NCBI GenBank assembly: GCA_007128555.1
Contig: SKXF01000387.1
Span: 1 to 6,934 of the forward strand
Source: Clostridia bacterium
GTDB lineage: Bacteria; Bacillota_E; SLMV01; PUMD01
Length of the DNA: 6,934 nt
Direction of reading: 5' to 3'
The notes under the pieces were generated by a model. It saw only the letters and a program-made list of their open reading frames with translations. It was not told the DNA's origin and searched no databases. Shown in pieces: positions 3,286 through 6,653 of the stretch. The position numbers and the translations under genes were made by a program. Position 1 is the first letter of the stretch. The number at the start of each line of letters is the position of its first letter.

Positions 3286-5370
3286 TCATACTTTGGCCCG
3301 CAGGATCCGGGCAGCGTTGAGCACTGCGAGTAGGGCAACGCCCACATCGGCAAACACTGCTCCCCATATGCTCGTCATGCCGGCTGCTCCCAGGGCCAAG
3401 AACGCCGCCTTGAATCCAAGAGCCATCACCACGTTCTGGGTGACGACCCGGCGGGTGACCCTGGCGATGGTGAGAGCCGTCGGGATTCGGTCCAGGCAAT
3501 CGTCCATGATGACGATGTCAGCGGCCTCGATGGTTGCGTCGGATCCCAGCCCGCCCATGGCCACGCCAACGTCGGCCCGGGTTATGACCGGGGCATCATT
3601 GATTCCGTCTCCGGCGAAGAGCACCCTGGATCCCGGGCGTTCTTCCTGCATCCTTTCGAGAATCTTCACCTTGTCAGCGGGGAGGAGTTCGGACCAGTGC
3701 CCCGCCAACTCCAGTTCCCCTGCGGTATTGCGGGCAGCTTCAGCGGTATCACCGGTCAGCATGTAGCTGGAGATGCCCATCTTCTCAAGGGCCCTGATGG
3801 CTCCCGCGGCCGTGGGGCGTATGGCGTCGGCGATGTGCAGGGTCCCAAGGAGTTCTCGGTCCCGGGCCACGTAAACGGTGGATCCGGAGACGGGAGAGGG
3901 AGCGTGGGCGATTCCCTCCTGGTCCATGAGGCGGGTATTCCCCGCGTGAAGGACCCCTTCTTCCAGGCGTGCCTCCACGCCCCGTCCCGGCTGCTCCCGG
4001 TAATGGCTCAGGGCCTCTGGAAGCGGGATCGAGCAGGTGGTCTGCGTTTCGTCGTATTTCTTGCGAATGGCGGAAGCAATGGGGTGTGTTGAATGGGTCT
4101 CCGCCACTGCTGCCGCTGTCAGAACGTCACTCTCCGAGTATCCGGGTTCGGGCCGGATCTCGCGCACGGCGAAGATCCCGTCTGTCACCGTTCCGGTCTT
4201 GTCGAAGATGGCCACAGATACGGAGTTGAGGGCGTCAAGGAAGTTAGCGCCCTTGACCAGTATGCCGCGGCGAGCGGACAGGCCGATTCCAGCAAAATAT
4301 CCCATGGGTATGGAGATTACCAGGGCGCAGGGACAGGATATGACCAGCAGGATGAGGGCCCGGTATCCCCAGACCGCAAAGGACGCGTCGGACGAGACCA
4401 GCGGCGGCACAGTCGCCAGGGCCAGGGCGGAGAAGACCACGGCCGGAGTGTAGTAGCGGGCAAACCGGGTGATGAACTGCTCGGCGGGGGCTTTACGTGT
4501 TGCCGCATCCTCGACCAGTTCCATGATCCTGGCGACGGCGGATCGCTCGTATTCACGCTGAACCCGGATTTCCAGGACCCCGTCTTCGTTTAACATGCCC
4601 GCCAGCACTTCTTCCCCGGCTGTCACCGGCCGGGGTACCGATTCTCCCGTGAGGGCCGAGGTATTGACAGAGGAGCTGCCGGCGGTGACCTCACCGTCCA
4701 GCGGAATGCGTTCGCCGGGGTTGACGACAATGATGGCGCCAGGCTGCACCGTATCCGGGGCAACCAGCTGGATCCCCTGGTCGTCGCGAACGCGAGCGTG
4801 ATCGGGCCGGAGCTCCATCAATGCCTGTACGGAGCGGCGGGACCGTCCCACGGCCAGGTTCTGCAAGTATTCTCCGGCGCGGTAAAACATCATGACCGCG
4901 ACGGCCTCGGGAACTTCTCCAAGGGCTATGGCTCCAAAGGTTGCTATGCTCATCAGGAAATTCTCGTCAAAGATCCTGCCTCGTCCGAGGAGGTTGCGGA
5001 TCGCTTTTCGGATCACTGATTGCCCGACCAGGACGTAGGCTGTCAGCAGCAGCAGGTATTCGACAATGCCCGGCCGGAAGTGGTGAAGGAGCAGCCCGGG
5101 GATGAACAGGGCCAGCCCTACGATCAGGACCTGCGCCTGGTGGCGGAGGGCCTTACCGTCGTCGGGGGCACGGTCTGCAGCCACGAGGCGAATATCCGGT
5201 TTGACCCGGTTTATGGCATTCTGGGCGTCATCGAGCTGGTGAAGGTCCACGTCCACGGTCCGGGTGGCAAAACTCACCACGGAGTCTTCGAGCCCCGAGA
5301 CTTTCTGCAGTTCTTCCTCGATCTGTGATGCGCAATGGGGGCAGTCAAGCCCCTCCAGGATGTAGCGCAC
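3286..5370 (-). CDS. Heavy-metal-translocating P-type ATPase (P1B-2, Zn/Cd/Pb type)
   Basis: A complete 694-residue inner-membrane pump expected to export divalent soft metals (Zn, Cd, Pb) using ATP. An N-terminal heavy-metal-associated domain carries a C-x-x-C site at Cys10 and Cys13 (GLDCPHCAS). Hydrophobic segments lie at about 77-120 and 138-162. The actuator motif TGES is at 241-244. The membrane metal site SCPCAL (C346-P347-C348) precedes the phosphorylation motif DKTGT at 390-394 (phospho-Asp390). The nucleotide-binding His-Pro is at 429-430 and the hinge GDGINDAP at 587-594. Lys654 and Asp675 in the last two membrane helices correspond to the Lys/Asp pair of ZntA, which favours Zn/Cd/Pb over Cu. 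The start is GTG 5370, with GGGGGTGAG about six bases upstream. The length is normal for the ZntA/CadA family. No ArsR- or MerR-type regulator gene adjoins it. A broken zinc-ribbon gene follows almost immediately, then a terminator. Substrate choice among Zn, Cd and Pb cannot be read from sequence alone. Confidence 0.95.
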   Translation of the reverse strand: MRYILEGLDCPHCASQIEEELQKVSGLEDSVVSFATRTVDVDLHQLDDAQNAINRVKPDIRLVAADRAPDDGKALRHQAQVLIVGLALFIPGLLLHHFRPGIVEYLLLLTAYVLVGQSVIRKAIRNLLGRGRIFDENFLMSIATFGAIALGEVPEAVAVMMFYRAGEYLQNLAVGRSRRSVQALMELRPDHARVRDDQGIQLVAPDTVQPGAIIVVNPGERIPLDGEVTAGSSSVNTSALTGESVPRPVTAGEEVLAGMLNEDGVLEIRVQREYERSAVARIMELVEDAATRKAPAEQFITRFARYYTPAVVFSALALATVPPLVSSDASFAVWGYRALILLVISCPCALVISIPMGYFAGIGLSARRGILVKGANFLDALNSVSVAIFDKTGTVTDGIFAVREIRPEPGYSESDVLTAAAVAETHSTHPIASAIRKKYDETQTTCSIPLPEALSHYREQPGRGVEARLEEGVLHAGNTRLMDQEGIAHAPSPVSGSTVYVARDRELLGTLHIADAIRPTAAGAIRALEKMGISSYMLTGDTAEAARNTAGELELAGHWSELLPADKVKILERMQEERPGSRVLFAGDGINDAPVITRADVGVAMGGLGSDATIEAADIVIMDDCLDRIPTALTIARVTRRVVTQNVVMALGFKAAFLALGAAGMTSIWGAVFADVGVALLAVLNAARILRAKV

Positions 5371-6372: not shown

Positions 6373-6400
6373 GGGAGAACGGGGGGTGACCCGTTCTCCC
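6373..6400. terminator. Bidirectional terminator-like hairpin between convergent genes
   Basis: GGGAGAACGGG (6373-6383) and CCCGTTCTCCC (6390-6400) form a perfect 11-bp stem around a 6-base loop. It starts two bases after the glycosyltransferase stop and ends eight bases from the stop of the opposing selenoprotein gene. Neither side has a long T-run (CCTCT on plus, TTC on minus). Its position and stability suggest it serves both transcripts. Confidence 0.6.
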
Positions 6401-6407
6401 CCTCTGA

Positions 6408-6641
6408 TCACAGGTCGAGCAGTGCGGTGATCTTTGCCCGGTCAAATCCGACAAGCACTTCGTCACCCACGACGGTGGTCGGGGTGCTCATCGACCCAAG
6501 CTCTCTCAATTCAGCGATGAATTCGGGATTTTGCGTAATGTCGCGTTCCTCGAACTGCACGTTGTTCTGAGATAGAAACTCTACCTCGGCGCCGCAGGGC
6601 GGTCAGCCAGGCTGGGTGTATACGATCAATACGTCTGTCAT
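6408..6641 (-). CDS. Glutaredoxin-like selenoprotein (Uxx-star type), in-frame UGA as selenocysteine
   Basis: A 77-residue thioredoxin-fold redox protein whose codon 13 is TGA (6605-6603). With TGA as selenocysteine (U) it begins MTDVLIVYTQPGUPPCGAEV, giving a U-P-P-C redox centre (U13, C16) right after the first beta strand, where glutaredoxins carry C-x-x-C. The fold signature continues past the TGA: FEERDITQNPEF at 30-41, the cis-proline loop STPT at 52-55, and VLVGFDRAKI at 62-71. The frame stays open to TGA 6410-6408. ATG 6641 has a strong AGGTGA site at 6653-6648, six bases upstream, which would be odd for a 12-codon product. A bSECIS-like hairpin follows the UGA. The likely role is thiol/selenol-disulfide exchange or peroxide reduction in the cytoplasm; partners are unknown. 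From memory, NCBI names this type 'Uxx-star family glutaredoxin-like (seleno)protein'. Automatic annotation would miss or truncate it. The genome should encode SelA, SelB, SelD and tRNA-Sec. Confidence 0.88.
6569..6587 (-). promoter_or_regulatory. Bacterial SECIS-like stem-loop for UGA recoding
   Basis: On the minus strand GAGGTAG (6587-6581) pairs with CTATCTC (6575-6569) in seven consecutive pairs, one of them G-U. They close a five-base loop AGUUU (6580-6576). The stem begins 15 bases after the UGA and the loop lies 22 bases after it, within the spacing described for bacterial SECIS elements (about 16-37). A G sits in the second loop position, matching the conserved guanine required near the start of the apical loop. 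SelB would bind here. A competing short GC hairpin (CCGC-CCT-GCGG) directly follows the UGA. Confidence 0.7.
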
Positions 6642-6647
6642 CGCAAA

Positions 6648-6653
6648 TCACCT
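6648..6653 (-). promoter_or_regulatory. Ribosome binding site of the selenoprotein gene
   Basis: AGGTGA on the minus strand lies six bases before ATG 6641. This near-ideal site fixes the start codon and shows that ribosomes are directed to a frame that reaches a TGA after only 12 codons. That supports read-through rather than a chance open frame. Confidence 0.75.

Follow-up and report, generated by a model that had tools for sequence, protein, structure and literature searches.

The window (the whole 6,934-nucleotide stretch of DNA analysed here) carries near its right-hand end a reverse-strand frame that encodes a complete glutaredoxin-like protein if a single in-frame TGA is read as selenocysteine (Sec). 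The features discussed below are as follows (coordinates, strand, description):

6641-6408 (-): Sec-containing glutaredoxin-like coding sequence, 77 aa; frame complete if TGA 6605-6603 is Sec; stop codon TGA 6410-6408
6603..6605 (-): Sec codon UGA, residue 13, first position of U-P-P-C; column occupied by Cys or TGA in the homologues read
6648..6653 (-): ribosome-binding site AGGTGA, 6 nt before the ATG; read from the sequence, with identical letters in the sister locus L001
6569..6587 (-): bacterial SECIS-type hairpin GAGGUAGA-GUU-UCUAUCUC, 8 bp; apical loop starts 24 nt after the UGA
6373..6400 (no strand assigned): 11-bp perfect inverted repeat GGGAGAACGGG / CCCGTTCTCCC between the converging glutaredoxin and glycosyltransferase genes; kept in L001
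5658..6371 (+): family-2 glycosyltransferase, convergent with the selenoprotein gene (PF00535, 75.6 bits)
3286..5370 (-): heavy-metal P1B-type ATPase with N-terminal HMA domain (TIGR01525, 531.9 bits; cut-off 346.25)

Translation of 6641-6411 with TGA as U gives the 77 residues MTDVLIVYTQPG-U-PPCGAEVEFLSQNNVQFEERDITQNPEFIAELRELGSMSTPTTVVGDEVLVGFDRAKITALLDL, in which TGA 6605-6603 is the sole interruption of a glutaredoxin-fold frame and an STPT loop is present. The Pfam Glutaredoxin model PF00462 matches residues 6-62, and hence across the TGA, at 52.5 bits (gathering cut-off 22.9; C put for U). A preliminary description of this DNA had proposed just such a complete U-P-P-C protein with its STPT loop and ribosome-binding site, and the translation and Pfam match bear it out. 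It had also stated that open reading frame calling finds nothing at this position and that the locus would be mis-annotated by default; the second part stands, but the mechanical list does contain a 50-aa GTG-started frame (6560-6408) on the 3' side of the TGA, such that default annotation could yield a truncated gene as well as none. The locus is in this respect a clean case of a real gene liable to be dropped or truncated by default annotation. A promoter scan found none.

The ATPase is further matched by TIGR01512 (487.8 bits; cut-off 313.5) and PF00403 (35.6). The glycosyltransferase gene sits on the opposite strand between the ATPase and glutaredoxin genes, so these two do not form one transcription unit, and a metal-related role for the glutaredoxin is not implied by the presence of a P-type ATPase on the same strand. 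The inverted repeat is possibly a terminator for both converging genes; no T run follows it on either strand, and a terminator scan found none. The sole Rfam match, mir-504, fell on this repeat region and was rejected (E 1.7, far below its gathering score). Elsewhere in the window, positions 631-2634 encode a surface protein of S-layer type (PrcB C-terminal, Gmad2 and SLH domains), and positions 1-630 hold no convincing gene among the listed frames (the longest wholly inside being 65 aa).

Sec and Cys forms among relatives

A scan of genome contigs returned one relative of the locus, L001 (contig PXCI01000214.1, 'MAG: Clostridia bacterium isolate T3Sed10_282', genome G001 below), which is 88.7% identical in DNA over 2,448 aligned columns (257 mismatches) and carries the same TGA. 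The two glutaredoxin proteins are 97% identical, with one of the 76 non-Sec residues changed, and 15 of the 16 codons that differ are synonymous. This holds on either side of the TGA: two synonymous and no non-synonymous differences on the 5' side (pS 0.21, pN 0), 13 and one on the 3' side (pS 0.28, pN 0.007). Together with the Pfam match across the TGA, the near-identical TGA-bearing relative and its synonymous differences uphold the earlier judgement that a chance event is unlikely. A literature search returned no title or abstract start on this locus; the accessible main text of a study of soda lake sediment MAGs (PMC6146748) mentions T3Sed10 once and contains no word beginning 'seleno'.

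A homologue search of G001 and 100 relatives gave matches in 61 of the 101 genomes. We aligned 51 rows (the window, L001 and L021-L069; L020 repeats L001 and was left out), of which 48, the window included, were usable once L036 (column 13 outside the match) and L047 and L048 (unmatched once residue 13 was masked) had been dropped. These 48 rows, 33 with TGA and 15 with Cys, underlie the hairpin, register, covariation and tree analyses. TGA occupies the residue-13 column in 33/33 TGA rows (the window plus 32 homologues), and every one of the 15 remaining rows has Cys there, as TGC or TGT; the ratio of 33 to 15 is not a frequency, because 20 loci (L050-L069) were picked for a flagged TGA. By our count the search held 49 TGA-flagged matches, of which 32 were read. 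The preliminary description had looked ahead to homologues that align on both sides of the UGA and carry Cys in its place, and the 15 Cys rows are exactly these.

The nearest relatives, from genomes G004-G008, have Cys at residue 13 and are 60-64% identical. The G005 and G007 loci run M32 peptidase, glutaredoxin (Cys form), family-2 glycosyltransferase, and G007 continues into a P-type ATPase, a point that the G005 contig does not reach; given this shared gene order, Sec and Cys alternate at one locus. A protein database search added five relatives; three are full-length Cys forms (63-66% identity). Two 65-aa database proteins, P0005 and P0006, start with MFCNRTKEFL at the place where a U-M-F-C site would be, and look like selenoproteins truncated at UGA by gene calling. 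Phage records matched in 166 of 50,697 cases, each below 60% identity among the matches listed.

On the best tree of the 48 rows (79 columns) the Sec/Cys label needs eight changes, and six to nine in bootstraps, while well-supported branches force only three; the columns being too few, we claim no direction of change. One long branch belongs to the distant homologue L046 (G091:C259), a Cys glutaredoxin domain that continues in-frame into an apparent thioredoxin-reductase domain (read by eye). A second, diverged TGA-bearing glutaredoxin-like gene, L063, was seen in G009 (C12:7600-8150); its match (7755-7973) stops 131 nt short of the selA match, which starts at 8104.

The machinery for Sec decoding (SelA, SelB, SelD and tRNA-Sec), which the preliminary description had named as a check, is all found in the genome of the sister species, G001, on which this check was made. 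SelA is split across two contig ends (462.8 + 145.9 bits), SelB scores 313.3 bits, or 333.1 with a neighbouring stretch, and SelD, itself with an in-frame TGA, scores 375.2 bits, each over its curated cut-off; tRNA-Sec is likewise over cut-off at 73 bits, and ARAGORN reads its anticodon as tca (UCA). We extended the survey to 24 genomes of our choice, whose completeness is not stated. SelA, SelB and SelD were all over cut-off in 12/12 surveyed genomes with a TGA row (G001 included) and in five of the nine with Cys rows only, so that Cys is not simply the remnant of machinery loss. Among the other Cys-row genomes, G008 has SelA and SelD over cut-off, and G004, G005 and G007 gave none of SelA, SelB or SelD over cut-off, an absence that is provisional. 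G002, G003 and G010 had no glutaredoxin match in the homologue search.

The hairpin downstream of the UGA

The bacterial SECIS model, as given in the portion of PMC13188914 available to us (Fig. 2 legend), has a loop of 3-9 nt with G in its first two positions, an upper stem of 4-16 bp, a spacing of 16-37 nt and an energy of at most -7.5 kcal/mol. The window hairpin has this shape (3-nt GUU loop, 8 bp, +24 spacing), with an energy of -7.3 kcal/mol when bare, just short of the model's -7.5, and -14.1 for the 43-nt segment. Relative to dinucleotide shuffles this energy is weak (z -1.1 to -1.7); codon shuffles gave borderline values (p 0.04 for the window and 0.055 for L001), and p <=0.05 in 9 of the 33 TGA rows. 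Some model-like hairpin at or below -7.5 kcal/mol occurs in 12/33 TGA rows versus 1/15 Cys rows (L039, at another place). An Rfam search up to E 10 gave no SECIS match.

Because the energy z-scores are weak, we relied on register and covariation. With the +24 register defined as a stem of at least 6 bp whose three-base loop starts with GU at precisely this position, the hairpin is present in 19 of the 33 TGA rows (the window and L001, which are near-copies, both among them) and in none of the 15 Cys rows; any other offset between 16 and 37 is found in at most 2/33 TGA rows. The remaining 14 TGA rows would need another SECIS form. Random synonymous recoding of the window peptide seldom reaches 8 bp (151 of 20,000 recodings with its own codon use, 258 of 20,000 with even use). 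Across the TGA rows 204 of 264 pair cells are formed, compared with a shuffle mean of 166 and maximum of 182 and with no more than 157 in slid registers, and each of the eight stem pairs is represented by two to six standard pair types. In the Cys rows the count is 49/120, which slid registers equal or exceed.

The register is stronger evidence for a SECIS element than the energy. Third-position changes between L001 and the window are absent from codons 12-29 (0/18) and occur in 14/59 codons elsewhere (Fisher p 0.03), a silence that is only moderately unusual and at most hints at RNA-level constraint. A fixed-register hairpin with a three-base loop could sharpen SECIS search models.

Explanations for the in-frame TGA

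The conserved frame, the TGA column, the Sec machinery of the sister genome and the recurrent hairpin register make this very probably a real Sec-decoding gene, and we hold with high confidence that it encodes a small dithiol-type glutaredoxin-like selenoprotein with Sec inserted from UGA at residue 13. A glutaredoxin pseudogene created by nonsense mutation would also present an in-frame TGA interrupting the gene, with Cys in its nearest relatives. Such a remnant would hardly share its TGA with a sister species across 11% DNA divergence and with a single change among 76 other residues, nor show purifying selection 3' of the TGA (13 synonymous changes to one), and every TGA row has the codon in the catalytic column; the probability left to a pseudogene is negligible. 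Error in sequencing or assembly deserves equally scant credence. One base separates TGA from TGC or TGT, and L001 is itself a metagenome assembly, but it is a distinct sequence from an independent assembly with the same TGA (which speaks against TGC or TGT at the codon), 31 further homologues have TGA in the same column, and the +24 hairpin is confined to TGA rows. The synonymous pattern on both sides of the TGA in L001 leaves neither a pseudogene nor a lone sequencing error as an explanation.

It is also highly improbable, if slightly less so, that UGA is here a stop, the product being the 50-aa C-terminal piece from GTG 6560, or that it encodes a different amino acid, for example Trp. The GTG frame is indeed in the list, and termination commonly competes with Sec insertion at Sec codons, where such competition is usual. 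Against a stop, the 12 codons 5' of the UGA are conserved too, with no non-synonymous change, and the predicted fold uses a strand at residues 5-9 that is encoded there. Against another residue, TGA is the stop codon of all three neighbouring genes, and the non-TGA rows have Cys throughout.

Related families and proposed redox function

With the gene taken as encoding a selenoprotein, the class to which it belongs has been described, as the preliminary description had supposed. The parts of PMC13188914 and PMC9312934 at hand list UxxC Sec glutaredoxins above those rows that are headed 'predicted'; according to the former, Sec raises the catalytic efficiency of Sec-containing glutaredoxins. From the accessible portions of two earlier surveys, ten Sec glutaredoxin sequences came from the Sargasso Sea (PMC1088965, 2005) and others from Alkaliphilus, Moorella and Geobacter (PMC1794560, 2006); the table of the latter gives three Sec glutaredoxins and, in a column totalling 33, an entry of 3, which we take to count Cys-to-Sec changes. 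Our understanding of selenoproteins is unchanged by this gene.

Within NCBIfam the two top matches, both nearly full length, are GlrX_YruB TIGR02196 (72.3 bits with C for U, 64.6 with X; cut-off 88.55) and Uxx-star NF041212 (54.8 and 46.5 bits; cut-off 66), followed at a distance from its own cut-off by NrdH-redoxin TIGR02194 (49.7 and 42.9 bits; cut-off 85.75). The protein scores below all three cut-offs and is thus unnamed within the known UxxC glutaredoxin selenoproteins. For Uxx-star family 1 (NF041114) the accessible part of PMC13188914 gives the motif UxxT, in contrast to the UxxC of the window protein. NrdH-redoxins likewise have a small glutaredoxin fold without GG-D; they differ from the window protein in that Sec here replaces Cys, and no ribonucleotide reductase is encoded by the three neighbouring genes scanned. 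GG-D is the glutathione motif of glutathione-type glutaredoxins, which in turn are without the C-terminal GFDR-K stretch of the window protein.

It is possible, at a confidence somewhat short of even, that these proteins form an unnamed UxxC glutaredoxin subfamily lying below all NCBIfam cut-offs, many of whose members would use a SECIS subclass (three-base loop starting GU, +24 nt, 6-9 bp stem) and in which Sec and Cys would have been exchanged repeatedly; one or more of these exchanges would have taken place at a single syntenic position, in company with absence of the Sec machinery (G005, G007). If so, the exchange would provide a natural series for asking when Sec is kept. Related genomes, some having the Sec machinery and some not, also offer both the Sec and the Cys form of one locus for testing what Sec adds.

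The AlphaFold2 prediction, from seven sequences and with C in place of U, is a glutaredoxin fold with a mean pLDDT of 84.8 and a pTM of 0.69. The best PDB match by sequence and by structure is the dithiol glutaredoxin cGrx1 (7c10; TM 0.80-0.84), followed by B. cereus BC3987 and, lower, NrdH proteins (4hs1, 4fiw, 4f2i and 1h75 among the fold matches). The cGrx1 protein (PDB 7c10/7c12/7c13), which we take to be from Clostridium oremlandii and natively a selenoprotein (helped by titles in a review's reference list), is a PF00462 glutaredoxin of the same fold and size with Sec first in UxxC, shares the GFDR-K stretch near the C terminus and is 46% identical over the aligned part; it was crystallised as C-P-H-C, compared with U-P-P-C here.

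The hairpin would hold SelB with Sec-tRNA(Sec) at the UGA, leading to Sec insertion at residue 13; Sec13, as the selenolate, would attack a disulfide or other oxidised substrate, Cys16 would resolve the intermediate, and either thioredoxin reductase or a small thiol would return the oxidised protein to its reduced form. The roles of Sec13 as nucleophile and Cys16 as resolving residue would follow from the established dithiol mechanism, and the protein may have the fast thiol-dependent redox role that the preliminary description had suggested.

As electron donor, thioredoxin reductase is weakly favoured as a somewhat better guess, on account of the NrdH/YruB-like C-terminal GF-D-R-A-K stretch, of trxB beside selB in G001, and of the apparent fusion of glutaredoxin to a thioredoxin-reductase domain in L046. 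G004 and G008, which have the Cys form, gave no TIGR01292 match over cut-off and so lend this guess no help. A title in the reference list of that review pairs a Sec glutaredoxin with Sec-MsrA; this pairing is not repeated in G001, where no Sec-MsrA partner was found and neither of the two MsrA genes has an in-frame stop. In G001 trxB immediately precedes selB, with both on one strand (L077, G001:C155, 2850-5728), and the same pair recurs in G006:C86, a unit that may tie thioredoxin reductase to Sec decoding.
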